NCBI GenBank assembly: GCA_037039925.1
Contig: JAXRKP010000558.1
Coordinates: forward strand, 94,501 to 158,500
Source of the DNA: Doris montereyensis
Taxonomy: Eukaryota > Mollusca > Gastropoda > Nudibranchia > Dorididae
Reading direction: 5' to 3'
Length of the DNA: 64,000 bases
Made by a program: the position numbers and the translations under genes. Under the pieces are notes generated by a model. The model was not told the DNA's origin, made no database searches, and was given only the letters and a program-made list of their open reading frames with translations. How positions within the stretch are numbered: the first letter of the stretch is position 1; each line of letters starts with the position of its first letter. Positions 11,500 through 63,461 of this stretch are shown here, piece after piece.

Positions 11500-13762
11500 T
11501 CATTCGTCTCCGCCCCTCCGCCGACGGGCTCTCCGCGCAGCTCGGTCATCACTGGAGGAGTCTTCTGCTGCCTGCTGCTCCCTCTCCTCTCGTTTTTTCT
11601 TCTGCGAGCTTCTCTGTCACCCCGTCGGCCTTTCCCGTGTCTTCCTCGGCAACTGTCTGCTTCTCCCTCTCCTCCCGCCTCCGCCTCCGCCTAGCTTCTC
11701 TTTCGTCTTCTTCGGCGGGCAATTCTTCCTTTATGTCGTCTTCCTTCTTGACTTCCTCTGTCTCTGTTTTCTCTTCCGGTTCACTCTCTTTGGTATCGCT
11801 TTATGTTCTCTTCTTCTATTTTTTCAGAATCGCCCTCAACACTTGGTGACTCCTCTTCATCTTCATAGGGCTTCTGAAAGATGGGGCGGGGTCATCCTCT
11901 TTCTCCTCCTCTTTCTTTTCACTGTCCGCCTCATCACTCTTCGTTTCTTTGCTTTCTATCGATTCGTCTTCATTCTTTGAGTCCTTTTCATCCTTTACCT
12001 CTGTCTCTTCCTGCTTGTCAGCGGAATTTGCTTCGTCACCAACATTTGGAGAGCTCTCATCAGTTGCAAAGTCAAGCCCCTCTTCCTCTTTCATCAAATG
12101 ACTTCTTAAACCTATTTTTAAAAGATGCAGCTGGATCGTCACTTTTAGCTTTTTCCTCCTCTTTTTCTTTCTCTTCCTTTGCTTCTGTTTTCTCTTCCTC
12201 TTCTTTTGCTTCTGTTTTCTCTTCCTCTTTTCTTTGCTTCTGTTTTCTCTTCCTCTTCCTTTGCTTCTGTTTTCTCTTCCTCTTTTTTTCTCGTCTTTCT
12301 CTTCTGTCTTATTTTCCTCTTTTTCTTTCTCTTCCTTTGTTTCTGTTTTATCCTCCTCTTTTTCTTTCTCATCTTTCACTTCTGTCTTATCTTTCTCTTC
12401 CTTTGCTTCCACCTCCTCCTCCTCCTTTTCCGCACCTCCACCCAAATCTAGGCCCTCTTCCTCTTCCTCATCGTACGGTTTCTTAAAACGATTTTTGAAT
12501 GCTGCAGCTGGGTCATCTTCTTTCTTTTTCTCTTCTTGACTTTCATCTTTCTTCTCTCCCTCTTTTTTGTCTGCTTTCTCTCTTCTTTTCCTGTATCCTC
12601 GTTTCCTTCTTCTTTCTCTTCCTCTGTCTTCACATCTTCCTTCGTTTCAGCCTTTTCCTCGAAAGTGCTCAGGTCAAATCCTCCTTCTTCCTCTTCTTCA
12701 TCATCATAGTCCCGTTTAAAACGGTTTTTTAAATGCTGCGGCTGGGTCATCTTTCTTTTCTCTTCTTCTTTCTCTTCTGTTTTATCTCCAACCGCTTTCT
12801 CCTCCTCTTTGTCTTCTTTCTTTTCATCTTTTTCTTCTTCTCTCTTTTCATCTTTTTCCTCAAAAGACCCCAAGTCAAGTCCCTCCTCTTCCTCATCATA
12901 ATCTTTCTTGAAGCGATTTTTAAATGCCGCAGCTGGATCGTCTTTCTGTGTTTTCTTCCTCTGTCTCTTCCTTTTTCTTTTCTTCTTTCTCTTCATCTTT
13001 TTCCTCAAAGCCACTCAAATCCAGACCCTCTTCTTCCTCATCATAATCTTTCTTGAAGCGATTTTTAAATGCCGCAGCTGGATCGTCTTTCTTTGTTTCT
13101 TCCTCTGTCTCTTCCTTTTTCTTTTTCTTCTTTCTCTTCATCTTTTTCCTCAAAGCCACTCAAGTCCAGACCCTCTTCTTCCTCATCATAATCTTTCTTG
13201 AAGCGATTTTTAAATGCCGCAGCTGGATCGTCTTTCTTTGTTTCTTCCTCTGTCTCTTCCTTTTTCTTTTCTTCTTTCTCTTCATCCTTTTCCTCAAAGG
13301 CACTCAAGTCCAGACCCTCTTCTTCCTCATCATAATCTTTTTTGAAGCGATTTTTAAAAGCAGCCGCTGGATCATCTTTTTCTTTTCTTCCTCCTTCTTA
13401 TCATCATTCTCAAAAGCTCCGAAATCAAGTCCTCCGTCTTCCTCGTCATAATCTTTCTTAAAACGATTCTTAAATGCCGCTGCCGGGTCCTCTTTCTTCT
13501 CCTCTTCTTTTTCTTCTTCCTTTTCTTCTGCCTTCTCCTCAAATTCACCGAAATCGATACCACCTTCCTCATCGTCATCAAAATCCTTTTTGAACCGGTT
13601 TTTGAACGCCGCAGCAGGATCCTCCTTTTTCTTCTCGTCTTCAGCATCTTCAGTGTCTTCCGACTTCTTATCTTTGTCATCTGTTTCATCCTTTTCTTTC
13701 ACATCGTCATCCTTCTTTTCGTCTTCACCTTCCTCCTCATTTTCCTCCGTCTTCTTTTCAGA
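11500..13762 (-). CDS. SH3BGR: SH3BGR coding exon 4, acidic repeat tail
   Basis: The acceptor (cttgtacag) precedes SEKKTEENEEEGEDEKKDDD, after which a ~48-residue module recurs nine times. Each module is an acidic (K/D)DPAAAFKNRFKKD(Y/F)D core, then EEEEGLDLSGFEEKDEEKEE and a Glu/Lys/Thr spacer. Cores lie near 13593, 13461, 13344, 13199, 13055, 12912, 12718, 12486 and 12107. A tenth, degenerate one (DPAPSFRSPYEDEEE) is near 11870. The end is basic-acidic (REEREQQAAEDSSSDDRAARRARRRRGDE) with TGA at 11500-11502. No single frame spans the exon; at least five 1-base shifts, mostly in A/T runs of low-complexity sequence, move the cores between frames. The tail is predicted disordered. No function for the module is known to me. 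Confidence 0.75.
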
Positions 13763-16700
13763 CTGTACAAGATATCAATACATCAAAATATCAATGAAAG
13801 ACCTAGAAATGTGACACTAAAATACAAAAATAAAATATTTTGTATTGGAAGATATATTTCAAATGGCACATGTCAAAATACAATCTAATGAATGTATATT
13901 ACTGAAGAATACTAATCATAATACAAAATTACACCTTTTTTTTTAAAACAGGAGGAAAAAAGACCCCCCCACCCCACCACACACACACACACACACAAAA
14001 GGGCCTCAGTTATACCTCAAAATTGAGAAATATCTTAACCTGTGCTAAAAGCAGTTGTAAGCTGGAAATGTTTTACTTCGATATCTTGTCTGAAACTTAA
14101 AAAAATTTAATAACAAATGTTGTGTATAACCTGACAAATCATTTTAAGTAGAATTTTAAATATAAACTGTACACCCCTTCTCAGTAATAGTCTCAAAATC
14201 AACAGATTAGAAAGTAATCTTTTTCTCTCCTACCAACATACATCCAATTTCTTTTCTTACAGTCTACCATTACCAATTCATAGAAGAAAAAATTATTTCT
14301 GCATAAAGCCATTTACAGTCTTGTGTATCTAGCATTAACCCCATGAACACAACACTGTATGCATAAAGGAAAACATTCTTTCTATGTCTGTCCCATTTGT
14401 AAACATATATTAGGAAAATCACTTTAAACGGAAAAAAAGAAAAGAAAAAAAAATGATGAAGAAAAGAAGATAATAAATAAAATACTCAAGGTTTCTAAAG
14501 AGGGCTATAAAATTCTTTGACACGAACCATTACAGGACAAGAAAATGTTGTTCTTCTACAACAAAGGACTAGTAGCTGAATCCTAGCTGCTTTATTTGAT
14601 TTACCAACATTTACAACTAAGGTGATCTCAGGGTTTTTGGTAGGATTTTTTAAATTTTGCTCAGACTGCCCTGTAAACAGCCAAGGGATTTTTAACGTGT
14701 ACAGAATGTTGTGATCTGCACACGGGACCTTTTTATCGTTCATCTCTGGTGGGACTAAGTGTCGAACCACCTACCTGGACCAGGGGGTAGATTTTGCTAA
14801 AAAAAAATCTAGAAAATTTGTCAACCGTCAGCAGGGCCCGAACCCACTACCTTTTGGTTGAGAGGCTGGCACCTTGCCTCCTGACTACCGAGTCCCCCTC
14901 CTAGCTGCTAGGACCAGGCATAGAAGTGTCAATGATTTGAAGAAGAAGAAAAATCATATCGAAGGTGAAAGTCACAAGCCGTCTAGGTCCAATTTTGAAT
15001 GTTTTGACAAAATTAAAGAACAAGATGCTGCACATTTTAATCTATTTTCACAGACATATATGGTGTGCAAGTGTAAAAACTAGACCCAATAGGGATACGT
15101 GGATTGCTCATATGGTTATTAAACGGGTTACTATTGTTTCGTGTGCCACTTGAATCCTAACTAAACGAAGCATAGGGGCTTCCTAATATTAGAAAAGAAA
15201 AGAAAAGGTGTTACTAATTTTAGAGTTACACGGTTTGCGACTTTCACCGTCGATATGAAATGTAAAACACTTCACTACAAAGAATAACTAATTTCTTGAC
15301 AAAAATGTTAAATTCTGGGGATTATGGTGTGTAAAGTACCGTAAGCATTTCAGCCTCTACAGATGTACAACCCATAGAACTTTTACGCAGCTAATGTCTG
15401 CCTTTCATTTAAATCTTTTAACTTTTTGGATTCAAACTGTCATTGACGTGGAAAACAAGTAGACCACCCATTTCACTAGAAATAGGTAACAACTATCTCT
15501 AACGTACCATATAATTCAAATACAAAAGTTTCTCCTAATATCAACATGAAGCAGAATACTACACACAGTGAAATTCTATGAGGAAACAAAACGTCTTGAG
15601 AAGAAGATGTTGTGAAAACAGGGTGGGAAATGAGATAAAACATGAAATCCAAGGTTTGCCGTATTAAAGACAATATTTTAAACATCAAAGAAAGCGTTGT
15701 CTAGTCTAGAGTTTAAATGTCTCATTATGGTCTACCCTTCTACAATATTGCTTGGGATCAATAAATATTCTTACGTATGCCCTCGCCCTAATGAAATGGG
15801 ATTTGAATAAAAACATCTTCAAAACGATTTCTCTAAAAATGTGGCTTAAAAAACACTAATTATTTGAAATTGGCTTGAATCTCTCTGCTAAAATTGAGGT
15901 TTTAAACAGCCCTCATATACTTTCTACTTGAAAAGAAAGATTATATTGACAAACAAAAGAAAAAGAAAGAAAGACAGACAGACACAGAGAGAGAGGGAGG
16001 ATAAGAAAAGAGTGATAGAATGGCAGGAGTGAAAGGCTGGGGGAAAAAAGGTAGGAAAATTTGTGACAGATACTGCTAAGTATGATGACGATGAACAGCG
16101 TCAAGTGAGAAAGAGTGTCATGATAATAATAATAATGGTGGAAATTAGAGAAGAGAACACAGGATAATTATTAAAAGTATCACTATCACTCCATGCAGTG
16201 GCACAGAACACTACCTGATCCTGTTTCTCGCCTTTTCTTCTTCCTATGTGACAAAAATTTAAAGCATGACATAAAGGACCTTTCAGAGCATCTGTGACTT
16301 TCAATTACAATTAGAATTAAACAATTGAAACAAACGATACAATGAAGAAATTCAATTTAAAAGCATGCACAAAATAACTTTTAATATATTTTCTCAAAAG
16401 TGTCCACAGTCAAGCCATACGGTAATGAAATGTATTCTGAAAAACTTAAAACAATTGGTAAATTGAAGATCTTTTTAAAAGATTTTTTCCCCCTCAAAGA
16501 AGCACATAAAATTCATTTGAATTCTTCACCATAGCAAAAATGCAATATGAGAAAGATAAAACATATCAACATATCTATTGTATAAAAAAAAAAATTTTTT
16601 TAACGTGAATGATAAAGAGAAAAAAGCTTACCCCTGTGATCTCAACAACTGCTGTAGATTTCTTGTTAGGATTCTCCAACTTCAAAAAATTCGTACAATT

Positions 16701-19700
16701 GATCCCATTCTATTGAATCTGTAAACTTGTCATAATCCTTTTATAAGACAAAAGATCACTGGTTAGCTTTTAATGTATACATTCATACATAGATGCAGTC
16801 TACAATTTTTTTTCCAAATTCCGTAAAAACGAAATAGATCATATAAACGTCAATTTTACTTTTCGGGAGTATCAAAAAACATGTTTAACAAAAGAAATAA
16901 TCTTACACTTTCAAAAACAAACAAATTATTTCCACACATACACACATTCATAAATGCCTCTTGCATTTATACAAACACAAAGATACAACAAAAAAAACCC
17001 ACATGAAGAAGTACAGAACACACATGGCATGTAAACCTAATGATAGAAATCTTTAAAAAAAAATTTTTTTTAAAAGAGTGCAAACCAAGAAACAATAAAA
17101 TTACAGAGACTCTTTCTATATGAAAATGACTTCAAAACAAAATTAAAAAATCAAAGGCTGGCTGTATTTGTTTTTGATAAAACCAGAAATCATTCATAAA
17201 ATGGGAAAATTCTCCATGCAAATTACCCCGCAGTAATCGTCTCCATGAAAGATTTGTGGTGGCGTCGGCTTTTTATTGGGCTTCTTCGGGTGCTATTTTG
17301 AATGCATAAATTTAAGGAGCTCATCACAAATAGGATCAAGGACATCAACGACTTCATGCTCTATTTTTAAACCTGCTAGAATGTCCAATATATGTTGCTG
17401 CTTTTTTCGAACCTGAAACCAAAAGGAAATATGAAAAATGTATTATATATACAAACATGAATTATATTAAAATGAGAAATTTTGCACTGATTTAGGTTAT
17501 GTGCAGTTTGCCTTGATATTTAGGATACATATCATTATAGGTAACCCCACCATTTTCCTCATGAGACTGACAAAGATATAAGTGATGGAGAAAATAAAAG
17601 CTAATTGTTAATAGGAAGCTTAGTTTTTCACAGCACAACATTATGAAAGAGTTATAATGCATATCTGTCGTTATAAATTATAGCAAAAATAGGACCATGA
17701 AACAAGCTTTGGTGTCTATTATTGTTAACTTAACACATATTTTTTCACAACCCGACACAGGCGCAAATGGAGACATAATTCTGGTTTAGCACCAATAGGC
17801 AGTAACAAATTTGAAAATGGTAAATCGTTTATGATAGTTATTAGGATGTATTGGTCCTCACTTAATGAAATGTTAGCTGTGCTAATCAATCAATCTCTCT
17901 TGTTGACTGAATATCACACTGCGCCATATGTGCATGTACTGTGCCATGTATTGTGGTTCCCACAGCTTTCATAGGCTAAGGAACTGAGTCTGGCAGCCCC
18001 TGGAAGTAGTAAATGTCTTGTCACAGGTCTGTATCTATATAATGTAGTTGTAGAATCCCTACAGGGCTTTAATACAATGTTTGAGACGTAATGCTTTACT
18101 ATCATTACTGTGCCCTTAACATCACAAGACAAAAGTGATTCTTTCCCATTGTTTTTTTTAAGTTTATTTGAGCCTTTATTGCTGTACATTTTGACTGCTA
18201 TTTTAAAAATTCTTTTTGTGTTTTTTTTATGTTATACTTTGTCTATGAGTGTGTGTGACCCATAATGGGAAGAGAGTTGGGGTTGAGGATTAGGACAACT
18301 TGCGCACAGTCTATGTTTCCGGCCCCTTGTCACATCAGAGACAGACGATAAAACGAAAGTCCTGTGTGCAGATCACATCAATGTGCACACTAAACATCCC
18401 TTGGTTGTTTCCAGGGCAGTCCGGGCGGAAACAAAATAGAAATAAAATCCACCTTTAGTTGAGGATGTGGGTAAAATCAAATCAGTCTCAAGTGTATTAA
18501 GAGACTCTATACCTAGAAGTTAGACCTCTACTAAAGTTAAATTAGCGGAAGGTTGTAGTCTGCTGCCTGGGTTTAGTTCTAAAAATTGAGAGTTACAAAA
18601 GAAGAGGAAGTAGTAAGTTAAGTAGTAAAGTTGTAAGTCTAAGATCTCAGCTTAGACTCCAAAGATATATATTATTATGCTGCGGCGCCCGAGCGCTCAC
18701 ATCAAACTGCTATGACTGCTAGCACTGAAATGTACATCGCACACAGAGTTCATGACACACTAACAAAAACAACTCAACACGAATAAAGTCTTATCCAGTT
18801 TGCCTTCAGGTCACTTGTTGTCTTGATATAATTATTCTATTATTATTACTATTAAAGTGCTACATTGGTGACCCCGACGTGATATAACTTTACACCTACA
18901 AAGTACTATTCAGATATACTTTGAAGACCTCAGCATCGTTCGACAGCATTCAAGTCTAGCAGAGGAAATCATTCGACGATTTTGTCACACTCTTCAACTT
19001 TCGTTCAACTACCTCACTTCTAGACTGAGCCTAAACGTTTTGACTTTTGTCTTTCCAAAATATCCATCCCAACATCCATTCAATGATGTTTATTGAAACA
19101 GTATCACTTAAATTACCAATTTTTGGACCCCTTGTCCTGCCGCATAGTTCGCGCAAAGCTTTCTAAGCACAGTTTGTGCTCCGCCAAATAACGTCAGACG
19201 ACACCAAATATTATTATGTCGTTGTCGTCCTGGATTCTGACACTGCTGCAAGAGCGTTACCCATCATTTCTTCACCGTCAAGAACAGGAAAATACGATGA
19301 GTTGAAAGAATCTCTTTTGTCGACCTACAGTCTGTCAGAGACAGAAGGAACAGAAACACTGCTCAATCTCAACGGTTTAGGTGACAAGAAACCATCGAAA
19401 TTGATGGACCAAATGCTGATTCTCTTGGGGAATCACAAGCCTCGCCTACTTTTTCAGGCAGCATGAGTAACTGTCAAAATACAGTCATCCTATATCATTG
19501 AAAAGTTTGTAGCGTCCTTAGTTGCCATAGAAACGGCCATCATCTTGGATTTTGACTCAATTTTCAAAATCTATCTCCTCCCTTAGTTATGAATAAAATC
19601 ACTCAAAACCTGTGCAGATCGTCTTTTCCATTCAATGTCTAAAGAGCAAAGTCGGGTTTTTTTTATATTTAGGATAGTTTTTTTTAATGAATTTTTGAAA

Positions 19701-22700
19701 ATACCATATATCGTGAATGTACAAAAACGGTGTTTTTATTACCAAAAAAAAAAACATTTCTCAAAAAGTTTACAAATAAAAAAAACCCGACATCATTCTA
19801 TTAACATTGACAAGAGGAACCTATGTACCAAATATAATACAAATCGTTCGGTAAATGGTGGAGGAGAAAGAATTTTAATGTGTGGAAAAACTACATTTCG
19901 AGAAAATACAAGTAAAAAAATCAACAGAAAATAACACAAAACAAACGCTTCAGACGGGGCTTCCCTTGTTGTAGCAGCCCCCTTACTCTTTCGACAGTCT
20001 CTGGCACTGTTACTTATGTAAATAGGATTATAAATCTAGGTTTAGATGTGCACTGTTGTGAAAACAGACGTCTAAAATGACCAGTTTTTTGTTTTTCCTC
20101 TATATCCTATGCTTGTGCAAGTGTTTACATACACACTGACGCGCAACGCCTCTTATGTCACACAGCGACGGGAGACACGCAGATCATCGTCGGCAAATGA
20201 GGTCAAATATTGTGTGCTGCCACATTTGGCGATTAACCGCCAATATACAGGTTTTTAACTGCCATTTTCTCAGTCAGTGTTAGGTAATTTACGCCAAAAT
20301 TTTGACTGTTTTTAATTACAAAATATTTTGTAAAAAAAAGATACGTCATTGCTGCCATGAAATTGTAGATAAATGATCGTTCTACCCGAAATATGCAAAA
20401 ACAGAAAATCAACCTTTTGGTCCAAAACTCGCCAGTTCATGTTCCCCCCCCCCAAGTCCAAGCCATCCAACACAAACAAGAGAAACCAGGAAACGCCAGC
20501 AGGATGGCAGTAAAATTCTCTACTGTTGATCCGGGTTGCTATGCCACAGACTATCCGAAAGCACCAGAAGACCTTCAACTGACTGTCATAGATGCAAACT
20601 CCAACCACCGATTCTTAGTGGATACTGGGGCCCAAGCATCCGTTACTCCCGCTTCAGCAGCTGACAAGAGTTTGGGCTGCTCTAATCTCTCTTTACAGGT
20701 AGCTAACAGGTCATCCATCAAAACATATGGTTGTTGTGAGGTCACAGTACGTTTTGCATCCCGCACGTTTCAAACATGTCTCATTAAGGCAGATGTGAAG
20801 CGTCCTCTACTGGGAGCAGATTTTTTTGCGTCGACATAATCTACTTCTGGACATACGGACGACGACTCATCGATGCTAAAACATTTTCACTCATACCTTG
20901 TTCTGTGGAGTTCCGTCTCATCGAGTAACATCGAATCATCTCCTTTAGAACCTTGGGCTTCTCCATTACGCATGGTTCAAATATGTCAGCAATATGCGTC
21001 CATGTGGTGACTTTCGTAGACTCAATGATGCGACTGTTCCCAATCACTACCCAGTTCCACACATTCACGACTTCACTGCTAACCTGAATGGAAAATTTTT
21101 CTTCCATGATCGACCTGGTTAGAGGTTACGATCAAATTCGGTAGCCCCTGAGGACGTCCCCAAAACTGTGGTAATCACCCCTTTTGGGCCATGGGAATTT
21201 CTAAAAAATGCCATTCGGGTTGAAGAATGCAGCACAGGCTTTTCAACGTTTAATGGACTCCATTTACAAGATTTGAACTGCGTCTTTTGTCACTTGGATG
21301 ATATTCTCATAGCTAGTTCTACAGAAGCAGAACACATGGAGGATCTCAACAAAGTGTTTCAACGATTGAGAGACCATGGGCTTGTCATTAGTCTTGAAAA
21401 ATGCCTCTTCGGAGTGGCATCACTAAACTTCCCTGGTCACCAAATTTTGTCTTCGGGATCTGTCCTAAATGAGAACAAAATTCAAGCAATCAGAGATTTT
21501 CCACAGCCCAAAGACAGGTCACTTCAGGAATTCCTAGGCATGGTAAACTTCTACCATCGTTTTGTGCCGGGACTTGCTGCGATACTTGACCGCTGTATTG
21601 CGCTTTGAAAACAAAACCTCGCCAGAGTCTAACATGGACACCGGAAATGCTGCAAGCCTTTGCCTACAGTAAAAAAGACCTCAGTAATGCAACAATGCTA
21701 GCTCACCCTTGCCGTCACAGTCCTTCCGCACTAACATCTAACGCTTTAGACGTAGCTGTAGGTGCAGTCCTTGAGCAACTTAATAGAGGTCAGTGGGAGC
21801 CCTTGGCCTTTTTCAATCCAGCTCGGAAACCTGAACAGAAGTACAGTACCTTCGATAGGGAACTGCTTGGAGTTAATTTAGCTATTCGTCATTTTCGCTT
21901 TATCATCGATGGAGACAGTTTGTGATTTTTACAGACCACAAACCATTAGTCCACTCCATGTCAAAAACCACTGAGCCATGATCGGCAACAACGGCATCTT
22001 TCCGCCATATCAGAGTTCAAAACCCCATCCGGCACATCTCCGGGAGAAGCAATACTGTTGCCGATTGCCTGTCTCGAGCTGACATGAACGCAGTCTCAAT
22101 CGGTATCGACTATCAGGCCATGGCAAAATCGCAGGAAACCAGCGTGGATGTACAGGCCTACAAAAACAGCATTAAACCAACCTCACAATAACCACTACAA
22201 AAGTAGATCCGCAAGGCCCAGACCTGATCTGTGACGTTTCAACTGGACACCCACGACCTATCGTGCCCCCCGAATAGACGACCCATCTTTGAAATCATCC
22301 ACAATACTTCTCATCCAGGAGTGAAAGCAACTGTGAGACTCATCAGCAAAAAGTTTGTATGGCATGGCTTAAAACAGGTTTCCTTGTGGGTAAAAGAATG
22401 TCATAGCTACCAATCCTCGAAAGTTCAGAACCATACATGAACACCACTGGAACAGTTTTCTGTGCCTGAAAAACGGTTCTCTCATATCAATATGGTTGGG
22501 CCACTACCACAGTCTCAGGGTTTCACGCACCTCCTGACTATCATAGACAGGAACACACAATGGCCTGAGGCTTTACCACTACGAGATACCATGACAGAGG
22601 AATGCGTCAGAGCGCTCATTTCAAGCTGGATTTCATGGTTTGGCATTCCCGCCGATATGTCATCCTACCTTGACCACAGTTTACATCTGCCCTGTGGTAA

Positions 22701-24318
22701 CAGATGGCCTTTCGCCCTGGGGTACAGGTTCACCACACAACCGCTTACCACTCGCAGGCCAACCGTTTGATTGAGCGATTCCATCGTTCACTCAGAGCAT
22801 TCCTCAAAGCTCGTCTGACGAACCTCAATTGGATCGATGAACTTTCCTTGGGTTCTCCTGGGTCTTAGAACCACCCCAAAAGAGGATATTGGCTACTCTT
22901 CGGCCGAACTTGCTTATGGCGAGCCATTAACAACTCCAGGAGAATTTGTAGCGGATCATACATCGCACCGCTCTGCTGAAGAATTTTTAATGCTTTCCGT
23001 CGAAACGCATCCCTCTATGTACCACGACCAACACACTATCATAGTTCTCCACATACACACCTGCCCCAGTCTCTGATGTCGGTAAAGTACGTTAAAGTAC
23101 GGTTGGATACACACAGGGGTCCCCTTCAAAGACCGTATATACTGGTCTACACTTAGTTTTAGCACCAGGGGATAAACATTTCCTGATAGACATTGGTGGA
23201 CGGACAGAACGAATCCTGGTAGACCAACTTAACCCAAGAAAAGCGCCGGCCCTAAATAAAGGGTGTGTTGCTGTCCGCCCGGAAGCGCCAGGCCCTATAT
23301 TTAGGGCCGCCTTCATTGGCATGGGAAGCATGCAGGCCCTATATTTAAGGCGAGACATCTAGGCTTCTTGAATGGAAATTTCCACTTTCCTTACATGGTT
23401 TATAATGTAGTTTGACCTTTGAGTTTGTAGTTAAATAACAGCCAATGAGATTACAATTTATTTTAAGCTCGTGGCTTTCCCGATAGCCTCGTTATCATTC
23501 GTCAAAGTGACGCTTTCCCATTCAACACATTTCATGAGAGGTCTAAGTTGATTCACGGCTATCGCTGCTAATGTTTAGTCCTTTGTTTAAGTTTCTCTTG
23601 TTGCAATAACATCTCAATATGAATTCTTTATTCTTTCAACTTACATAAAATGCATGTTTTATAGGTCTTTTGTCATCTGTAAATGTGAACTCCTTTTCAA
23701 CCTAAGTCTAAATCCTAGCTTCTGCCCGTTGCACATACTCGTTTTTTTCATGCAAATGGCTGGGGCAACCCCTCACTGTAAGAAGGTCATCCGGTAACAC
23801 TGCGAGCTCTACTTGGGTTAAGGCAGCAGTTGTGGATACCTCGCAACCGGTTTCCCCGCAAAACCACCTCGTCGTAGCCGGCCACCCAGTGACAATAGGC
23901 AGGTTGTTGTTGACAATGATCCTCACGGCTCAAATTCCAACAAGCCTCTGCTAAATGAAGAACACTCCCGTTCAGGGTGTATAATCAAGAGACCTCAACG
24001 CTTCCTGGACGACTAGTTTGTTTTGGGGGGTAGGGGGGGGGGGGGGAGCAGGTGTGGCGCCCGAGTGCTCATCAAACTGCTATGACTGCTAGCACTGAAA
24101 TGTACATCGCACACAGAGCACACACTAACAAAAACAACTCAACACGAATAAAGTCTTATCCAGTTTGCCTTCAGATCACTTGTTGTCTTGATGTTATTAT
24201 TCTATTATTATTACTATAAAAGTGCTACAATGCAAACTAGCATAGATCTGGCAAACTTTCTCAATAGGCCTACCTCATTACTAAAGGATGAATTGCTGAA
24301 AAAGACTCGGATACTCAT
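11500..24318 (-). CDS. SH3BGR: SH3 domain-binding glutamic acid-rich protein homologue (gene span, 4 coding exons)
   Basis: Exons at 24274-24318, 17227-17412, 16632-16737 and 11500-13762 join in phase 0 at GT-AG sites. They encode MSIRVFFSNSSFSNE, then VRKKQQHILDILAGLKIEHE, then KPTPPQIFHGDDYCG, then DYDKFTDSIEWDQLYEFLKL. This is the thioredoxin-like SH3BGR/SH3BGRL fold: N-terminal beta strand, KKQQ helix, and the proline-rich PPQIF segment before CGDYD. The family is small and cytosolic, lacks thioredoxin catalytic cysteines, and its molecular role is poorly defined. The vertebrate long form ends in a Glu-rich tail; here the tail is a tandem-repeat exon of about 2.2 kb. Intron 1 (about 6.9 kb) holds an LTR retrotransposon. 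Oddities: an in-frame TAG in exon 2, a homopolymer frame break in exon 3 and at least five frame breaks in exon 4. Assembly error is the likeliest cause; decay cannot be excluded. Confidence 0.88.
12107..13622 (-). repeat. In-exon tandem repeat, ~144-bp unit, 9 copies
   Basis: The protein module of SH3BGR exon 4 is a DNA tandem repeat. Copies starting near 12912, 13055 and 13199 (spacing 143-145 bp) are nearly identical at nucleotide level, including synonymous positions, and extend into the 13344 copy. Outer copies (12107, 12486, 12718, 13461, 13593) are more diverged and unevenly spaced. This gradient points to recent unequal exchange in the middle of an older array. Confidence 0.9.
13763..16631 (-). 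other. SH3BGR intron 3
   Basis: 2.87-kb intron between exons 3 and 4. It contains an (AC)n tract near 13978-13997 and a SINE family A copy (14591-14906). I see no coding sequence. Intron 2 (16738-17226) is short and featureless. Confidence 0.7.
14591..14906 (-). mobile_element. tRNA-derived SINE family A, copy 1
   Basis: On the minus strand it starts with a tRNA-like head with a B-box-like 'ggttcgggccc'. It continues through a poly-A-like break, 'ccaggtaggtggttcgacac', 'gatctgcac...cacaacattctgtacacgtt', 'cccttggctgtttacagggc' and 'gagatcacctta', ending near the 'aaatcaaa' tail. Other copies: 18318-18492(+), 27843-28168(+), 30131-30393(+), 31300-31530(+), 32090-32392(-), 38636-38938(-), 59781-59950(-). 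Confidence 0.75.
16632..16737 (-). CDS. SH3BGR: SH3BGR coding exon 3
   Basis: 106 nt with acceptor tcttataaaag and donor GTAAGC. It starts DYDKFTDSIEWDQLYEF, completing the CGDYD motif begun in exon 2. A six-base A run on the plus strand (16684-16689) breaks the frame. With one base fewer in that run the reading becomes LKLENPNKKSTAVVEITG, which leads in phase 0 into exon 4. YEFLKL corresponds to the last helix of the family's domain. Confidence 0.82.
17227..17412 (-). CDS. SH3BGR: SH3BGR coding exon 2
   Basis: 186 nt, phase 0 at both ends, with acceptor ttggtttcag and donor GTAATT. It encodes VRKKQQHILDILAGLKIEHE, VVDVLDPICDELLKFMHSK, then HPKKPNKKPTPPQIFHGDDYCG. The first part is the family's KKQQ helix and second strand. 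PPQIF and YCG are the conserved segment at the fold's cis-proline position. Codon 40 is TAG (plus-strand cta at 17293-17295) between HSK and HPK, and both flanks read in the same frame. This is a base substitution, an assembly error or a true nonsense change. Confidence 0.82.
17413..18680. other. SH3BGR intron 1, part downstream of the retrotransposon
   Basis: AT-rich intron sequence between exon 2 and the retrotransposon's 5' LTR. A partial SINE A copy (18318-18492) is the only element recognised. The remaining 44 bp of intron 1 lie between the 3' LTR and exon 1. Confidence 0.6.
18318..18492 (+). mobile_element. tRNA-derived SINE family A, truncated copy
   Basis: The 3' half only: 'cacatcagagacagacgata', 'cctgtgtgcagatcacatc', 'catcccttggttgtttccag' and 'gtgggtaaaatcaaatcagt', in the same order as the complete copies. 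The tRNA-like head is missing or unrecognisable. Confidence 0.65.
18681..18864 (+). repeat. 5' LTR
   Basis: 184 bp, tgcggcgcccgag to gtgctaca. It pairs with 24053-24229 over its full length. It contains 'aataaag', a possible polyadenylation signal of the element, at about 18782. Short LTRs of this size are known in several gypsy lineages. Confidence 0.9.
18866..18883 (+). promoter_or_regulatory. Putative primer binding site
   Basis: 'tggtgaccccgacgtgat' begins 1 bp after the 5' LTR, where reverse transcription is primed by a tRNA 3' end. TGG at the start is the usual complement of the CCA end. Which tRNA it matches was not determined. Confidence 0.7.
19176..19466 (+). pseudogene. gag: Retrotransposon gag fragment
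   Basis: Contains SPSRTGKYDELKESLLSTYS, LNGLGDKKPSKLMDQMLILL and GNHKPRLLF. This is the typical 'LK..LL..Y..SE......L...GLGD.KPS.LMD.ML.LLG.H.P..LF' core of gypsy-type gag capsid proteins. A stop follows at 19464-19466. No CCHC nucleocapsid knuckle is seen, so the gag C-terminus is lost or lies in the interrupted segment downstream. Confidence 0.75.
19467..20392. other. Non-coding segment interrupting the retrotransposon
   Basis: About 0.9 kb between the gag remnant and the protease region, with no retroviral motifs. It is AT-rich in its left half. It sits where the gag C-terminus and zinc knuckle should be, so it is a later insertion, a replacement, or both. I could not define terminal repeats. 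Confidence 0.4.
20393..23250 (+). pseudogene. pol: Retrotransposon pol fragments: protease, RT, RNase H, integrase
   Basis: Protease: FLVDTGAQASVTPAS (20580-20640). Reverse transcriptase: a GDFRRLND-like block near 21000 in another frame, TPFGPWEFLKNA (21176), then FCHLDDILIASSTEAEHMED with the DD catalytic pair (21281-21345). RNase H: DVAVGAVLEQL and ALAFFNPARKPEQKYSTFDREL (21745-21870). Integrase: an HH-CC domain with HPGVKATVRLI and a decayed CHSYQ (22310-22410), then the core HINMVGPLPQSQGFTHLLTI with IIDR and WFGIPADMSS (22480-22660). Frameshifts and stops separate the blocks, so no functional enzyme can be made. The order RT-RH-IN places it in the Ty3/gypsy group. Confidence 0.88.
23245..23545 (+). 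mobile_element. Palindrome-bearing repeat family P, copy nested in the retrotransposon
   Basis: Three palindromes of the type ggccctatatttagggcc, spaced about 40-55 bp (23245-23352), are followed by 'ggaaatttccactttcctta', 'gtagtttgacctttgagtt', 'aacagccaat' and 'aaagtgacgctttcccattc'. The same ordered blocks occur inverted at 50165-50460. Since this copy interrupts the 3' part of the retrotransposon, it probably inserted after it. Nature unknown; the subterminal short palindromes suggest a DNA transposon end. Confidence 0.7.
24053..24229 (+). repeat. 3' LTR
   Basis: 177 bp, tgtggcgcccgag to gtgctaca. It is preceded by a G-rich polypurine run and followed by the ATGC target-site copy. It differs from the 5' LTR by a handful of substitutions and a 5-7 bp gap after 'acacagag'. 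Confidence 0.9.
24274..24318 (-). CDS. SH3BGR: SH3BGR coding exon 1
   Basis: Fifteen codons, MSIRVFFSNSSFSNE, from ATG at 24318-24316 to a GTAGGC donor at 24273. The pattern M-x-I-(R/K)-V-(Y/F) with a Ser/Asn-rich turn is the first beta strand of SH3BGR family proteins, and the intron after this strand matches where exon 2 begins (VRKKQQ). The start sits in a favourable context (A at -3). The open 5' flank (24319 to about 24530) is the probable 5' untranslated region. The retrotransposon LTR ends only 44 bp downstream of the donor. Confidence 0.8.
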
Positions 24319-25689
24319 GGTGAAATAAATCGAAATGTAATGGCTCCCACGCGAGGAAGAAGATGAAACTGCTTCGTAGTCAAAGGGTCGAGAAGTTTAC
24401 CCGATAAGGAAGTTTACACGGAAGAAACCATTGACGTAGTTCGTCATCTCATTTTGAGCTGAAGAGTTCCTTTCTGATACTTCAAATACCGTGACGTTTT
24501 GCACACTTCCAGGGAAGATGTTTCTTGTTGCTGGGGCAAGTAAACACACATTTTTTGGCTGTGCTTTACCGGAATACCAAACCTATGCATAACAGAGTAT
24601 TGACATGAACTTATTTACGGCTCGTTCAAGTGAGCGGTGAGTATTTCTCTTTTGGTTTTCATCTTTGACCCATGTATTCTATTTACATGTGTACTGCTTT
24701 CTTTTGAACAGCAAGATACAATCCAAAATTGCTCATGAAAAGTGAAACTACTGAAAGTGTTCATTCATGTTCACTGATAAATATATTTTTTTATTAAGAT
24801 CTTAGTGCAATTTACCAGGAAAGCCGGCGCTATCTAAAATGTCTCATCGTGGGGCATCTGTTGGGAATAATCACTTCGTTCAGAAATAATGGATTTCACT
24901 TGTCTGATTTGAAAGAAGGAATTCCAGTGAAATGGTGCATGGGAATAAAATATAATGAAATTAATATTCACAATCTGATCTGGATTTGTAAACAGTGACT
25001 TACGAGTAACATTCATGTGTAAATTCTATGTTTTGTGTTTATCATCATTAAACAAAACTGCAAGCAATTATGACAGAAGGAGTTTCATAGGCAGGATGAT
25101 TCACCATCTATCATCACTATCCCTGACACTTGCCCTCCACCCCCATCCGAGCTAAATGTAATCCCTCGGGTATCACATCTCAACAGCTGTGCTCCTGACA
25201 TAAGTGACAAAGAAATTGGCCACTTGATTCAGCTCGGTAGTTCTAGATGAGGATTATTGTGTCCATAAACAGTTTTATTTCAAAGGAATTAGGATTTCAT
25301 AATATTTAAAGATGGTTTGATATGTACATATGTGTCATGTTTCTGCTCATTGACTTTCACTCACTACCAATAAAAATACCCTACCCGACTATGAAACTCC
25401 TCCCATTTTTAAACTACTTTACTACTATTGGTAAAATTATTTGTATGTATATGATGGATATGAATAAGCAGTAGAGAGAATGAGAGAGAGAAAATACTAC
25501 TTAAAGGGAATGGTGGGATACTTAGATAAACTATATGTCACCTTTTATTAATATCAGAGTATCCAGAAGATTTGATAAATTTCAAGGAAAACTAAAAATG
25601 GCCTTACCACAGAAAAGAAGACAGGACAGAGAAATTTGGGTCCCCACCTTTTGTCAACAATAGGAACAAGCTCAGGTAGAAGTGATAAA

Positions 25690-32392: not shown

Positions 32393-32393
32393 C

Positions 32394-32486: not shown

Positions 32487-32510
32487 TAGCAGTAGCAGTA
32501 GTAGTGGTGC
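32393..32510. repeat. (AGT)n microsatellite
   Basis: About 118 bp of AGT/TAG triplets with GGT variants, directly joined to a SINE head, 390 bp upstream of the LCA5L start. Confidence 0.95.
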
Positions 32511-32897
32511 AGTTGCTGTGGCTATTGTTTATTTTCATTCCCTATATTATCTCTCTCTCTTCCTCTTTTATTTCCCCAGGTGCATGAGAAAATGCTCGCT
32601 GCCATTAAATACGACACTCTAAAATAAAACCCAAACAACAAGGACCTAGAATTATGGGCGTTTGCTTAATCTCAACTTGAGAAGAAGAAAATCATATTGT
32701 TTCTAATTCGAATTCAACTTGTCCGTGGTGAACATCAATCAACAGAGGACTAACGAGTGGGAAACCCCAAACACGACCACTGCTTTTGGGACTGCCCGGC
32801 ATACCGACCCACCCACTCTGAAAGGAGGTGTGGGTGAGTGAGAGAGTTGAGTGAGAAGGCGCGCAGGCAGGCAGGCGGGTTGAGAACTCAACACGAA

Positions 32898-47866
<14,969 letters not shown>

Positions 47867-50164: not shown

Positions 50165-50460
50165 TTGCACACAGTGTGTTGAATGTGAAAGCGTCACTTT
50201 CGACAAAACGATTATGAAGCCACCCGAAAAGCTGCAGGATTAGAATAAATTGTATACTTATTGGCTGTTGTTTAACTGAACTCAAAGGTCAAACTACATC
50301 ATATTCCATTTAAGGAAAGTGGAAATTTCCTTTAAAGAAGCCCAGGTGTCCGGCCCTCAATATAGGGCCCGCGCTCTTCCCGGGCCAACAAGATCCGCCC
50401 CTAAATTTAGGGCTGGAGCGTTTTCCGGGCCAATGGTAACATGCCCTAAATATAGGACCT
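50165..50460 (-). mobile_element. Palindrome-bearing repeat family P, copy 2
   Basis: Reverse-oriented copy of 23245-23545. It shares 'aagtgacgctttcacattca', 'aactcaaaggtcaaactac' (minus-strand equivalents), 'ggaaatttccactttcc' and three palindromes (ggccctcaatatagggcc; cccctaaatttagggc; gccctaaatataggac) about 50 bp apart with 'cttcccgggcca'-type spacers. Confidence 0.7.
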
Positions 50461-50754
50461 GTGCTCTTCTTGGGTTAGAGCTAAGGATATGCTAGCTGAA
50501 ACCCTCATTGATTTCTTAGATTCATTCTGTCCTAGTACTTGCCTACTTACTTGCTGCCCTTTACATAGTGTAGCAACAGAGCTTTTCCACTCCTGCCCGT
50601 TTAGGCCTTCTTCTGAAAGACGTTCCACATCTGTTTCCAGATCTTCATTTCTCCTTCTACAATTTTGCACCGGGTAATCTTTAGTGGTCCTCACTTTCTT
50701 CTGTCTTTGTAAACCCACATATTTACAGACATAGTCATAGCAGATTCGTTTCAT
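50446..50754 (-). other. Unrecognised 102-codon open frame beside repeat P
   Basis: Reads MKRICYDYVCKYVGLQRQKK and later NCRRRNEDLETDVERLSEEG, a charged, helix-prone sequence. It abuts the palindromes of repeat P and could be a transposon-borne gene remnant. I recognise no family. It may also be chance. Confidence 0.25.
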
Positions 50755-50903
50755 CTTTTAACAGTAATTTGTGATGCAGTACGTTATAACAATCAGCCAT
50801 TACAAAACATTTTTTCCTTATAAGCCTATCCATGTTCACTACAAACGTTGTCAGCACATATATGGTGATTGGAAATGGGGTTTCTGTTCTTGTATGTAGG
50901 AAA

Positions 50904-55380: not shown

Positions 55381-55454
55381 TCCTACTCAGTGCTGAGCAA
55401 AGGCAATCTGGAGTAAAGCCTTGATTTTATCTAAGCATTACTATATATCATCAC

Positions 55455-58621: not shown

Positions 58622-58641
58622 GTGGGGGGGGGGGGGGGGGG
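58622..58641. repeat. G homopolymer run
   Basis: About 18-20 G in a row, just beyond the GET1 coding end on its 3' side. Confidence 0.9.
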
Positions 58642-58799
58642 AAACAAAACAAAACAACTAAATAAATAAAATTAAAGAAATGTATTTTTTTTAATGAGAA
58701 GGGAGTGAATTGAGGTCACAAGTGGTGTGTGTGTGTTGCGATGGCAGCAGGCTGGTATCTCTTTCACTTTTCAGCAGCGATATGTTTGCTCTTTCCTTC

Positions 58800-58876
58800 T
58801 CACAAGCCACACAGACTTTTTCCTCTACGAATGACTGTATTGCAGGCCATAACCCAACATCCAAACCCCACAGCAC
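58800..58876 (-). CDS. GET1: GET1 exon 5 with stop
   Basis: The acceptor cttctttttgaaag precedes (G)AVGFGCWVMACNTVIRRGK and SLCGL, then TGA at 58802-58800. Phase 1 entry fits exon 4. GxGxxCWxxxCN is the third transmembrane segment of the family. The tail after NTVI is short and basic, as in other animals. Confidence 0.9.
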
Positions 58877-61800
58877 CTTTCAAAAAGAAGGATCAAGAAA
58901 ACTTCAATGTGCAGCAAACAAAAAGAAAAATATTACAATCAAGAACACATTACCCAATAGTTGACTAGATAAGAGGGGAACAAGAGGTAGCCTTAAGGCT
59001 ATAGTCTGTGCATAACAGTGCTTAGAAAAACGTATTATAACAATACAATATTTTCCAATTGATTTCACATATTTATCTATATCTCAGCTATTTGTCAACC
59101 AATTTTCTTCAAATTTTCATGACATAGGCTGAAGATGGTTTGCAAAACAACTAATAGAGTTTTTTCTTTTAAATACTTTTTATTAAATATTTTTTACATC
59201 TTGAAAAATTGCGTTTTTTATGTCACTTTGATTTGTCCACTATATCAAAAATATCTGTTTGATAATTATACATGATTTCAGGTTATTGCTCGCCAACTAT
59301 GGGCTGAATAGACCCATAAATATTATGATTTCAGTTGTCTACCTGGATTTCCATGGTCTATTATACACAAAAGAACAAATACTTTAAACATTTCGGTTTA
59401 ATTTAACAGTCCCTCATATTTAATAAGTTAAGCATTACATGGGTCTATTATACACATAAAAGAACAAGTATTTGATATCTCACTTGTAGATTTTTTACTT
59501 TTGAGGTGCACATCCCCTCAAGAGCAGCAATGGCTGAAGTCAGTGAATACACCCACAGACATAATGATATCTTGAAAGAGAGGATTTTAGAGCCAAGGAC
59601 AAAACAAATACACAGATTTTGCAGGAGGACAAAGATGCTTTTGGACTCAGTATTTTATGAGCATGAGTACAGTCAGTTTGGACAGGCCCAAGGTCACTGT
59701 ATTTGATAAGCTAAAGAGGAACAGCAATTGTCAGTGATTTGATCTTATCCACAAAACTAAGGCTTGAATCTTATCATAATAAGGTAATCTCAGGGGTTTG
59801 GGTAGGATTTTTAACTTGGCCGGACTGCCCCATAAACTACCAAGGCATATCTTTAACATGCATAAAATGTTGTGTGATCTGCACAGGGGGCCTCCTTTTT
59901 ATTGTCCGTTTCCGTTGGCACTAGGTGTCGATCTACCGACCTGGAGGGAATGGGGAGGGAATGGGGAGAGAGGGGGAGGAATGGGGAGAGAGGGGGGGTT
60001 TCTAAGGAAGACATTACTACTGCTGATAACATTATCCATTCTCTCATAGAAGCATTCTGTGTTTCCATATTTTACCTGGTAATCCTGATGGAAAAGCAAC
60101 TATCTTAGTGAATGGAGTGAGCCACTCCTGAAGCAACATCATGAGATGCTCGTTTCGATAATAAATCATTAAGATCAACATGAGAAGTCCCTGTGAAGAG
60201 ATGAGATGTTTTAATGAGATTAATAGAAGCAACAAAAGGCCTGGAGCCTTGTAGACAGGTAGACCATGAGACCATGGCAAAACAAAACAAAGCAAACAAA
60301 AAAGCATCATAAATTAACAAAATTTAGAAACAATATTAAATAAATGAATGCACACCAATTTTTTTTACAAATATTAATCAGAAAGGAGGCAAGACTAAAA
60401 TGTTACAAAAAACAAAACAATTCATTGAAATCAATAATAATTTAAAAAAGAAAAACGTTTTTTGACAAATAGTTTCAATCTGAGGTACTACATCACATAA
60501 ATAAGAACAAAAGAGTTTCTAGTGTATTTCTTTGTTTTTTCATTGAAATTTACCCTATCCAACATTAATTACTCTCTCAGACATCAGGGTATTTGTTTTT
60601 GGAAGTAACCCTGTCCTCCATCATGGAGATGATCTCAGGGTTCATAACTGACTAATATTCCTCACAACTGTCTAGGTTGAACATAAAGTTCTTTAAAAAT
60701 CAAAAACTTCTGCAAATATTTATAAATATTATAAAAAATATAGTCAATGTGTTGAAAATGTATAAATGTTCAGTATCCTACATTTAGTGATACAGTCTGA
60801 TTTCTTGTGTAAAAAAACGAAAATGATTTCTAGATCAGTCTCTCAAAGAGTTTGTAAATGTTTCTTTCAGAATAATGTTTCCATCGTATATCAAGCAGAT
60901 CAGAGCACCCTACAAAAACATGTTTAATAGTCAAGCGGCAATCACAGGAGTGACAGAAAGGCTGGTCATTATGGGTCAACAGGACACCTTGCATGAGCCA
61001 CAGTGACCAATATGGAATCGGCTTAAAACGCTCTCTTCGTTCCTATTTCTTACTTTTACATTTGGCCTTTCCGTCATTTTGGGACAACTTCATGAAACTC
61101 GTTATTAACTTCGTGGTCCCACTCCTCCTGCCAAGTTGTGTTAAAATAGTTCTTGGTTAAAACCATCAGGTCTGCGGAATCAAGCAATGCATTAAGGCTG
61201 ACATCTTTGGAACATCCTTCTCTTGCTAATTTATCGGTACTTTCACTTCCATCGATGCCCACATGCGGTATCCAGACAAGGGTCACAAATATTTGGGTGC
61301 ATTAAGAGGAAACTGCAAGATGAAAGATAAGTGAAAGAGTGAAAGAAAAGAAGCAGGACCTACCAGCAGCCCCCGCCAACAAATTCTAATATTGAAATTT
61401 CATCCCTCACTTAACTTTGAATGACTTACATGGAAGACATAAATGCCAACTGAAATACCCATTCTCAGGTAAGCTGTATTCTGTTGTCTTGCTGCAGCTG
61501 TGAAGATTTGAATCAATGTTACAAAAAGTACAAAAAGACATAAATTTAAGGAGAAGAAGAAGAAGAAGAAGGAGGAGAAGGAGGAGGGAGGAATAGGAGG
61601 AGGAGGACGAGGAGGAGGAGGAGGAAGAAGAAGAAGAAGAAGAAGAAGAAGAAAGAAGAAGAAGAAGAAGGAGGAGGAGGAGGAGGAGGAGGAATAGGAG
61701 GAGAAGGATGAGGAGGAAGAAGAAGAAGAAGAAGAAGAAGAAGAAGAAGAAGAAGAAGAAGAAGAAGAAGACGAAGAAGAAAGGAGGAGAAGGAGGAGGA

Positions 61801-63461
61801 GGGCGAGGAGGAGAAGAAGGAGCGGAGGAAGGGAGGAGGAGGAGGAGGAGGAGGAGGAGGAGGAGGAGAAGAAGAAGAAGAAGAAGAAGAAAAAGAAGAA
61901 AGAAGAAGGAGAAGGAGAAGGAGAAGGAGAAGGAAGAAGAAGAAGAAGAAGAAGAAGAAGAGAAGAAGAAGAAGAAGAAGAAGAAGAAGAAGAAGAAAAA
62001 AAAAAGGTAAAAAATATATTTATCAAAGCAACTCTACATTGGGCATCAAATCAATCAACTATATGTAGACAAAATGTTAATTTATTTTGATGACAAAAAT
62101 ATTGTCATAAACAATTTTTTTAAAGCATAGAAACTGTCAATAGGGAATCACAATAAAGAGAGGTACAATTAAAAATAGCAGTAAATTTACTGAATTTAAA
62201 TAGTGGCCTACAAATAAAATTTGCAGTACAAAGACAATATTATCCCTATGAAAAAGATGCATTAAACTGCCAAAGAAGTTCCTTTTGTGGAACTTACTTT
62301 ACCATTTCTAATAAATTGTAAACAAAGATTTAAAGTACATTGTGCTCACCATTTGCTTTGACCTGGTTTTTAGTTTGTCAACTGCCCTCTGCAGTCGAGA
62401 ATACTGGACAAATTCATCCGACATGCTAAGAAGAGCTTGCTGATCTTTCAAGCTCTTTATTTCTGTCCATATATTCATTTCCTTACCACTTGGTTTGAAA
62501 AGTAGCCGTGCAATCTGAAAGTAAAATGATCATTTTATTCTTGTCAAGTTTTTTCTTAATTCTTGTAGTAATTATTTCAAATTTCTTTTTAAATCAAGAA
62601 ATTTCTGTACAGGTACCAAAATATTTGAAATTTGTTTTCCTTGCTGTTCAAAGAAATCATCAAAGTCATGAGAATAAGGAAAAACAAAAATTTATTAAAA
62701 TATATCGTATGATATACCCACCCATCCAAGGCAAGCGTAGGTAAGCCAGGGAAACGCATACCAATATTAGCTTTGGTGCTAGGGGTGAACATATGTGTTT
62801 TATTGTTAACCATCTACCAACCATCCCTTACCCTGTTCCCTTAACCTGAAATAAAAGCTCCCCTGAACGATCCCTCCCCCTACAATCCCACTACCCCTAT
62901 CCCCCCATCCGAGGTAAGCGTAGGTCACCGGGGGAAACGCGGCATACCAATAGATTTGTTGCTAGGCAGTCCCGTAAAGTTGGACCAGTGAAAAAATCCT
63001 ACACTTTCTCTTGCCGACAGTGAAACCAGTGAGAAAGAAAGAAGATGGTCGCTGTGTGAAGGCTCTATAGGCTCTGTCCATTGAAATGTGCTATAATAAT
63101 ATATATGTAAAGATGGTTTGATAAAAGTATTATCTTTACTTTATATATTGACTTAAAGTCACCAGCGAAAAACAAATAAAAGTACCCTGGTATTGGAAGT
63201 CTTCCCCTGAATTTAGCTCATTAGTGAAATTTAAAGGGTGTGCCCGACTGTGGAAATCCTCCCTCAATTTGTATCTCAATTGTCATTTGTGCCAGACCAC
63301 GGAAATCATTCCAAACAGCAATACTCCAGATTCCTAGATCTATCTGAGACCAAAAAAGACTAAGTCAGTAGTGTACATACCAGCGATGTGATTCCGCCGG
63401 CATATTTTGGTAATATTGCATACATCAATTCAAAAACAAAGATGAATAGCATGAGAAACAT
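58800..63461 (-). CDS. GET1: Guided entry of tail-anchored proteins factor 1 / WRB (gene span, 5 exons)
   Basis: Exons 63381-63461, 62350-62514, 61430-61480, 60076-60190 and 58800-58876 sum to 489 nt and encode 162 residues without a frame break (human protein 174). Order: first membrane helix (FLMLFIFVFELMYAILPKYA); a cytosolic coiled coil (EIKSLKDQQALLSMSDEFVQ, then YSRLQRAVDKLKTRSKQM) that in the family binds the GET3/TRC40 ATPase; a second hydrophobic segment (MGISVGIYVFHGLLMLILMI); WLTPFTKIVAFPSGLPG, matching the family's 'W.TPL.RLVAFP'; and a third helix (AVGFGCWVMACNTVI). GET1 with CAML (GET2) forms the ER receptor and insertase for tail-anchored membrane proteins. The start is fixed by an in-frame TGA just upstream. 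Introns carry LINE, SINE and GAA repeats. Confidence 0.93.
58877..60075. other. GET1 intron 4
   Basis: 1.2 kb with a SINE A fragment (59781-59950) and G-rich 'gggagagaggggg' repeats near 59945-60000. A 66-codon plus-strand frame at 59506-59706 (MAEVSEYTHRHNDILKERIL) is of unknown meaning. Confidence 0.6.
59781..59950 (-). mobile_element. SINE family A, fragment lacking the head
   Basis: Minus-strand blocks as in other copies: 'ggtcggtagatcgacaccta', 'cagatcacacaacatttta' and 'gagattacctta'. Confidence 0.65.
60076..60190 (-). CDS. GET1: GET1 exon 4
   Basis: Acceptor tcatctcttcacag, donor GTAAAA. It reads GLLMLILMIYYRNEHLMMLL, QEWLTPFTKIVAFPSGLP and one base of the next Gly codon. It covers the end of the second membrane helix, a lumenal loop and the start of the third helix. 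Confidence 0.92.
60835..61286 (-). pseudogene. Non-LTR retrotransposon C-terminal fragment with RNase H end
   Basis: On the minus strand VWIPHVGIDGSESTDKLARE (RNase H 'V.WVPSHVGI.GNE.AD.LA') is followed, in other frames, by LSRFHIGHCG (the 'R.RIGH' block). CHSCDCRLTIKHVFVGCSDL (C-x2-C-x5-H zinc-knuckle type 'LT..H.L..C') comes next. This is the usual 3' end of I- or jockey-type LINE ORF2. Broken by frameshifts; inside GET1 intron 3. Confidence 0.82.
61300..61382 (+). repeat. Dispersed repeat family C, 3' part
   Basis: 'attaagaggaaactgcaaga' to 'aggacctaccagcagccccc' and 'gccaac', immediately next to GET1 exon 3. Confidence 0.65.
61430..61480 (-). CDS. GET1: GET1 exon 3 (51 nt)
   Basis: The donor GTAAGT follows YVFH. 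The acceptor at gcaagacaacag gives NTAYLRMGISVGIYVFH in phase 0/0, linking the coiled coil to helix 2. A better-looking acceptor 17 nt upstream (cttcacag) would break the frame, so the 51-nt version was chosen. Confidence 0.7.
61552..62005. repeat. (GAA/GGA)n purine microsatellite
   Basis: 454 bp of pure purine on the plus strand, alternating GAA and GGA blocks with GGC, GAC and ATA breaks. It lies in GET1 intron 2, only 70 bp upstream of the exon 3 acceptor. On the GET1 sense strand it is TTC/TCC, a long pyrimidine tract. Confidence 0.97.
62350..62514 (-). CDS. GET1: GET1 exon 2
   Basis: 165 nt, phase 0/0, acceptor ctttcag and donor GTGAGC. It reads IARLLFKPSGKEMNIWTEIK, SLKDQQALLSMSDEFVQYSR and LQRAVDKLKTRSKQM. 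The 'EI...K.EL...S..DEFA.YA.L.R.I.KL...L' pattern is diagnostic for GET1. Confidence 0.94.
62715..62975. repeat. Direct repeat pair in GET1 intron 1
   Basis: 'acccatccaaggcaagcgta'...'gggaaacgcataccaatat'...'tgctaggg' (62716-62782) recurs as 'cccatccgaggtaagcgtag'...'gggaaacgcggcataccaat'...'tgctaggc' (62904-62970). The two are spaced 188 bp apart, with unrelated sequence between. Possibly two ends of an element. Confidence 0.7.
63381..63461 (-). CDS. GET1: GET1 exon 1
   Basis: 27 codons from ATG at 63461 (context ccatcATGt): MFLMLFIFVFELMYAILPKY and AGGITSL, then a GTATGT donor. This is the first membrane helix. The upstream frame closes with TGA six bases before the ATG. Confidence 0.88.

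Follow-up and report, generated by a model that had tools for sequence, protein, structure and literature searches.

The question raised by this locus is whether three genes that lie side by side in an invertebrate assembly, identified as SH3BGR, lebercilin (LCA5) and GET1 (WRB), represent the same gene block that is found in the human chromosomal band 21q22.2 and, if so, what has kept these genes together. The window, that is, the whole stretch of DNA analysed here (64,000 bases), corresponds to bases 94501-158500 of a 274163-base contig (C3011). It is animal DNA with spliced genes, and the three spliced models were rebuilt from its reading frames (Table 1). The three genes named in the first-pass annotation, SH3BGR and GET1 on the minus strand and lebercilin on the plus strand, are all present, with the strands and ends given there, including the GET1 start codon at 63461. 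The first exons of SH3BGR and LCA5 (24274-24318 and 32898-33029, respectively) are additions to that annotation.

The family identity of the three models, which had been proposed before, is borne out by Pfam searches, in which all three score above the curated cut-offs. The GET1 model matches PF04420 (CHD5/GET1) at 1.7e-25, the SH3BGR core matches PF04908 at 1.1e-26, and the lebercilin model matches PF15619 at 1.6e-42. Among the sequences of solved structures, the best match of the GET1 model is WRB (2.8e-26), and that of the SH3BGR core is SH3BGRL2 (1.7e-18). The lebercilin model aligns with human LCA5 along its length, up to the C-terminal DEIEEV, at 5e-57 and 27% identity; in the human sequence, KNIYSNRL is the counterpart of the NNIYSNRV motif of exon 6. 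The distinction between LCA5 and LCA5L is a vertebrate one and is inapplicable to the gene in the window. In tblastn searches, human SH3BGRL matches the minus strand at 17.4 kb, and human GET1 matches it at three places (62.5, 60.2 and 58.9 kb). When exon 1 is added to the SH3BGR model, the Pfam match begins at profile position 1. A search for GET1 homologs in a large protein set, judged to be poor in animal proteins, produced 41 candidates, none of them significant.

The acidic tail of SH3BGR contains a tandem repeat with a period of 145 (12828-13393), composed of near-identical 145-bp units (DPAAAFKNRFKKDYDEEE), and two successive spacings between these units are exactly 145 bp. Because 145 is not divisible by three, the reading frame shifts at each unit. 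The in-frame TAG in the conserved exon 2 of this gene might reflect an error in sequencing, an edited site or a null allele.

Table 1. Exons of the three gene models and the spacers between them (positions in the window)
Feature	Position	Strand	Evidence and remarks
SH3BGR acidic tail	11500..13762	-	open reading frames; repeated DPAAAFKNRFKKDYDEEE units, some 145 bp apart; reading frame jumps
SH3BGR exon 3 (DYDKFTDSIEWDQLYEF / LKLENPNKKSTAVVEITG)	16632..16737	-	joined core matches Pfam SH3BGR; one frame break, located in a run of T
SH3BGR exon 2 (VRKKQQHIL...HGDDYCG)	17227..17412	-	tblastn, genome search; in-frame TAG at 17293-17295
SH3BGR exon 1 (MSIRVFFSNSSFSNE)	24274..24318	-	best among the 4 candidates listed, score 29 vs 19 for the next
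Head-to-head spacer between SH3BGR and LCA5 start codons	24319..32897	.	8.6 kb; simple repeats and repeat copies
LCA5 exon 1 (MASRRAYSDNGSDGAYSDDFISDEDRR...)	32898..33029	+	reading frame and donor
LCA5 exon 2 (VMSASRNRINELRNQ, start of lebercilin domain)	39540..39706	+	two frame breaks
LCA5 exon 3	40831..40983	+	reading frame, genome search
LCA5 exon 4	41999..42210	+	genome search; one frame break
LCA5 exon 5	42998..43136	+	one frame break
LCA5 exon 6	43879..44067	+	NNIYSNRV motif; two frame breaks
LCA5 exon 7	45116..45362	+	two frame breaks
LCA5 exon 8 with stop	46751..47866	+	five frame breaks; the C-terminal DDEIEEV is shared with human LCA5
Tail-to-tail spacer between LCA5 and GET1 stop codons	47867..58799	.	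10.9 kb; no gene recognised
GET1 exon 5 with TGA stop	58800..58876	-	Pfam CHD5/GET1
GET1 exon 4	60076..60190	-	tblastn
GET1 exon 3	61430..61497	-	phase off by one base relative to exon 2
GET1 exon 2, coiled-coil	62350..62514	-	tblastn, genome search
GET1 exon 1 with start codon	63381..63461	-	reading frame

A profile search of the 513-Mb assembly (3500 contigs) shows that the lebercilin, SH3BGR and GET1 domains are each matched only at this locus. The search was run exon by exon, with 11, 2 and 7 candidates scored for lebercilin, SH3BGR and GET1, respectively, and detected two of the eight LCA5 exons, one of the four SH3BGR pieces and one stretch of GET1 (a weak match, 3.2e-4); because the detection of exons is partial, a second copy that has diverged may have gone unnoticed. 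Among 14 control genomes, the lebercilin query was matched in one, below the cut-off, and the SH3BGR and GET1 queries in none.

SH3BGR, whose start codon is at 24318 and which reaches to about 11.5 kb, and LCA5, which runs from 32898 up to 47866, are arranged head to head, with the start codons 8.6 kb apart, whereas LCA5 and GET1 are arranged tail to tail, with the stop codons 10.9 kb apart. Both spacers contain tandem repeats and repeat copies. As noted in the first pass, no further host gene is recognised between the three, either in the lists of reading frames or in ten pieces scanned with Pfam; a weak match to the G5 domain at 50449-50757 reaches 20.5 bits, short of the cut-off of 23. A candidate first exon of LCA5 without coding sequence, near 24637 and with the donor-like sequence GCG/GTGAGT, was dropped, five such donor words being present in the spacer.

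Read in reverse, the window has the arrangement GET1(+), LCA5(-), SH3BGR(+), in agreement with the earlier proposal that it shares order and orientation with human 21q22.2, which has GET1(+), LCA5L(-), SH3BGR(+); the three families, their order and their relative strands are the same in both. The spacings in the human block presumably differ from both spacers of the window. Human LCA5 and SH3BGRL2 at 6q14.1 are also head to head, like the pair in the window, with a much larger spacing and with MYO6 on the same arm. Unlike the window, human 6q14.1 lacks GET1 and has PHIP and HMGN3 close by. It resembles the window in that LCA5 and an SH3BGR family gene occur in one region, PHIP, HMGN3, LCA5 and SH3BGRL2 being found there together (PMC5732689). 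For the other human region, GET1, LCA5L, SH3BGR and GET1-SH3BGR are listed at 21q22.2 (PMC12779367), and WRB-SH3BGR is among the candidate adjacent-gene fusion RNAs, with two of five marks Y (PMC4450057). In cattle, a 0.16-Mb segment at 139.23-139.39 Mb contains PSMG1, BRWD1, GET1, SH3BGR and LCA5L (PMC13244917). The cattle block holds BRWD1 and PSMG1, whereas on the contig that includes the window BRWD was not found and MYO6, COQ3 and ACAT2 are present.

Analysis of the rest of the contig identifies three named genes, all on the GET1 side. COQ3(-), at 179.6-184.4 kb of the contig, is detected by tblastn (1e-22), and its model matches structures of ubiquinone-biosynthesis O-methyltransferases at 1.5e-10. 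MYO6(+), at 210.3-243.8 kb, is supported by tblastn (to 8e-30), by matches to myosin VI structures (1.2e-33) and by the Pfam myosin VI cargo domain (1.3e-35). ACAT2(-), at 254.0-265.2 kb, is matched at 8.5e-13, compared with 5.0e-7 for ACAT1 over the same exons, and ACAT2 is also the best structure match (7e-24), followed by many other thiolases from about 1e-19. These genes were chosen by eye among the frames listed (including the best 110; scores above 11), and others may be missed. The human bands are 6q14.1 for MYO6, 6q16.2 for COQ3 and 6q25.3 for ACAT2. GET1, LCA5, SH3BGR, COQ3, MYO6 and ACAT2 are all located on one 274-kb contig, and the linkage of the latter part of this set (COQ3, MYO6 and ACAT2) to the block is what is new here. 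The other recognised genes of the contig being genes of human 6q, the contig appears to preserve, unbroken, part of an old animal chromosome. It looks like the unduplicated counterpart of human 6q14/21q22, and the most economical interpretation makes 6q14 and 21q22 two duplicates derived from a locus that this contig retains in single copy.

Both mammalian copies have a BRWD/PHIP gene adjoining the block; its presence was counted as an expected companion and not as a requirement for the common descent of the triple. No such gene was found beside the block: tblastn with PHIP gives no match over the 274 kb, the BRWD/PHIP query (the N-terminal PHIP part only) and ELOVL4 give none in the part of the contig flanks that was searched, and the only match of the BRWD1 N-terminal domain in the assembly is on a different contig (C2680, 115193-115294). 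On the SH3BGR side, roughly 105 kb in which 17,500 bases read N, no named host gene was found; a trypsin-like peptidase fragment at 49.1-50.1 kb of the contig is below the Pfam cut-off. Beside the GET1 start, on the opposite strand, there are open frames of 144 and 443 amino acids (contig 163926-165616), which match no Pfam family above the cut-off and probably represent a gene. Within COQ3, contig positions 179592-179720 and 180699-180839 match the same part of the protein, as expected if an exon were duplicated or part of the gene were present twice.

The view that chance adjacency of the three genes is improbable can now be put in numbers and stands. For 25,000 randomly ordered genes and 20,000 human triples, the expected number of exact triples, counting order and strands, is about 1.6e-5, and even under loose rules (within five genes, strand ignored) it is 0.003; the presence of COQ3, MYO6 and ACAT2 strengthens the case. 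Thus, it is very likely that the block was inherited by common descent, which is far likelier than chance. That the comparison is between one invertebrate assembly and human and cattle counts against this explanation, as do the missing BRWD/PHIP match on the contig, the SH3BGR side on which no named host gene was found, and the many frame breaks of LCA5. If the host is a protostome, the block would date to the bilaterian ancestor.

The accompanying statement that gene orders rarely persist from that ancestor was too strong. Across 49 animal genomes, 256 new three-gene blocks were assigned to the bilaterian ancestor, compared with 45, 48 and 56 in shuffled data, and 93% of the bilaterian-ancestor blocks are retained in lophotrochozoans (PMC8851819). 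The blocks described in that study are similar to the window in that they consist of at least three orthologs with few or no intervening genes and are retained over deep time; the window and the human genome have, as the definition employed there asks, at least three orthologous genes in common. The difference is that most of the bilaterian-age blocks of lophotrochozoans in that study are gene-dense, whereas the spacing in the window is loose (PMC8851819). None of six gene names looked for occurs in the main text of PMC8851819, and a search of openly licensed papers found no published description of the triple. Hundreds of such blocks are already known, and this triple is one more case.

The favoured account of this common descent is as follows. 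On one ancestral chromosome, SH3BGR and LCA5 would have been placed head to head, with GET1 tail to tail beyond LCA5, in a larger linkage group that would also have held MYO6, COQ3 and ACAT2. The doubling of the vertebrate genome would have copied this group, such that one copy became 21q22.2 (GET1, LCA5L, SH3BGR) and the second copy became 6q14.1 (LCA5 and SH3BGRL2, on the arm of MYO6), while the animal from which the window comes would have kept a single unduplicated copy. The human GET1-SH3BGR readthrough would then follow from the geometry, since the two genes share a strand and flank LCA5L, which is on the opposite one. This suggests that an old arrangement, rather than a recent human oddity, underlies the readthrough and the antisense LCA5L. 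The contig ties human 21q22.2 to 6q14 through a single invertebrate locus and provides a pre-duplication reference for a neighborhood of the Down-syndrome chromosome.

As to why the order has persisted, the better part of the probability appears to lie with rearrangements that break it being rare or mildly harmful, and not with a joint action of the gene products. The favoured cause is therefore that rearrangement is slow, any regulatory constraint being weak. The spacers, which as measured between start or stop codons are long, bear repeats and differ from the human spacings, argue against a rigid, compact bidirectional promoter.

Shared regulation, through a bidirectional control region of SH3BGR and LCA5 or through enhancers located inside neighboring genes, either of which any breakage would disrupt, would be an addition to common descent, not an alternative to it, but as the force that holds the block together it seems unlikely. 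It is in line with the head-to-head arrangement of the SH3BGR/LCA5-type pair in the window and in both human copies, and with the elevated CpG around the two starts (24001-24750 and 32501-33250). The ratio of observed to expected CpG is 1.11 at 32751-33250 compared with 0.56 overall; this is weak evidence, given that 48 of 254 windows pass the same threshold of 0.75. Shared regulation is often invoked for conserved gene pairs (PMC8851819), and head-to-head pairs are defined by transcription starts less than 1 kb apart (PMC7817982). In the window, the divergent SH3BGR and LCA5 have start codons separated by 8.6 kb that include repeats, which speaks against such control; the 1-kb criterion concerns transcription starts, and nearer non-coding first exons are possible. 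A more specific version, which we consider rather doubtful, is that the SH3BGR-LCA5 pair and the convergent GET1 constitute a regulatory unit that predates the vertebrate doubling and probably dates back to the bilaterian ancestor, with the pair kept in both human copies and in the window despite the insertion of repeats into both spacers, and with the GET1-SH3BGR readthrough as its outcome. The locus offers a clean triple in which head-to-head control can be tested against slow rearrangement as the cause of linkage.

The sensory-cell roles to which the first-pass annotation had pointed are not supported as a reason for the linkage, and it is very unlikely that a shared function in sensory cells has kept the block. 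Such roles fit GET1 and LCA5 in part: lebercilin is described in Pfam as a ciliary protein of Leber congenital amaurosis, and the contig also carries, at some distance from the block, the hearing-loss gene MYO6, a fact that leans toward this reading. By contrast, we know of no sensory role of SH3BGR, and COQ3, located between the block and MYO6, is a metabolic gene, as is ACAT2. In zebrafish, hair cells and vision are impaired when WRB is lost (PMC6143809), but GET1 serves tail-anchored proteins in general as their receptor and is used well beyond sensory cells, acting also in heart and liver cells, with the knockout studied in cardiomyocytes and hepatocytes (PMC5175141).

The quality of the assembly bears both on the gene models and on their adjacency. 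The LCA5 model contains 13 frame breaks in 2310 coding bases and no in-frame stops in about 770 codons, the pieces having been picked as open frames, which favours the absence of stops. Over the 696 bases counted for SH3BGR, which cover just the core and the beginning of the tail, there are one frame break and the in-frame TAG, whereas GET1 has no frame breaks within exons, although the phases of its exons 2 and 3 disagree by one base. For comparison, there are two in-exon breaks in about 2.5 kb of tblastn matches to MYO6 and two in ACAT2 over roughly 1 kb (tblastn matches that overlap in different frames), both counts being less complete than that for LCA5; COQ3 may hold one frame break as well. 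Several of the frame breaks fall in single-base runs, the pattern expected of sequencing error, and those in LCA5 are probably errors of the assembly; it is also possible that LCA5 is decaying in this animal, the breaks being denser than in its neighbors.

A misjoin of separate contigs had been named beforehand as an outcome that would undo the synteny; the window contains no N, and the only N runs of the contig (5001-17500 and 27501-32500) are both outside it. Judged from the assembled bases, a chimeric join inside the N-free window is possible. Nevertheless, that the adjacency results from misassembly or convergent coincidence is extremely unlikely, for although the assembly is noisy, with frame breaks in LCA5, SH3BGR, MYO6 and ACAT2, the order and all three strands match those of human, COQ3, MYO6 and ACAT2 on the contig represent independent 6q linkage, and the chance expectation is as low as calculated above.

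Repetitive elements are found both inside and outside the genes. Two long tandem arrays are present in the window, one at 3894-5366 with a 28-bp unit in about 55 copies, and the other at 37281-38036 with a 33-bp unit in about 23 copies. Intron 1 of SH3BGR contains broken pieces of an LTR retrotransposon (20369-22767), in which Pfam detects reverse transcriptase and RNase H above the cut-offs, and aspartyl protease-like and integrase matches below them. In an intron of GET1, the segment 60800-61300 resembles, by eye, the RNase H of a non-LTR retrotransposon, the scanned piece giving no Pfam match.
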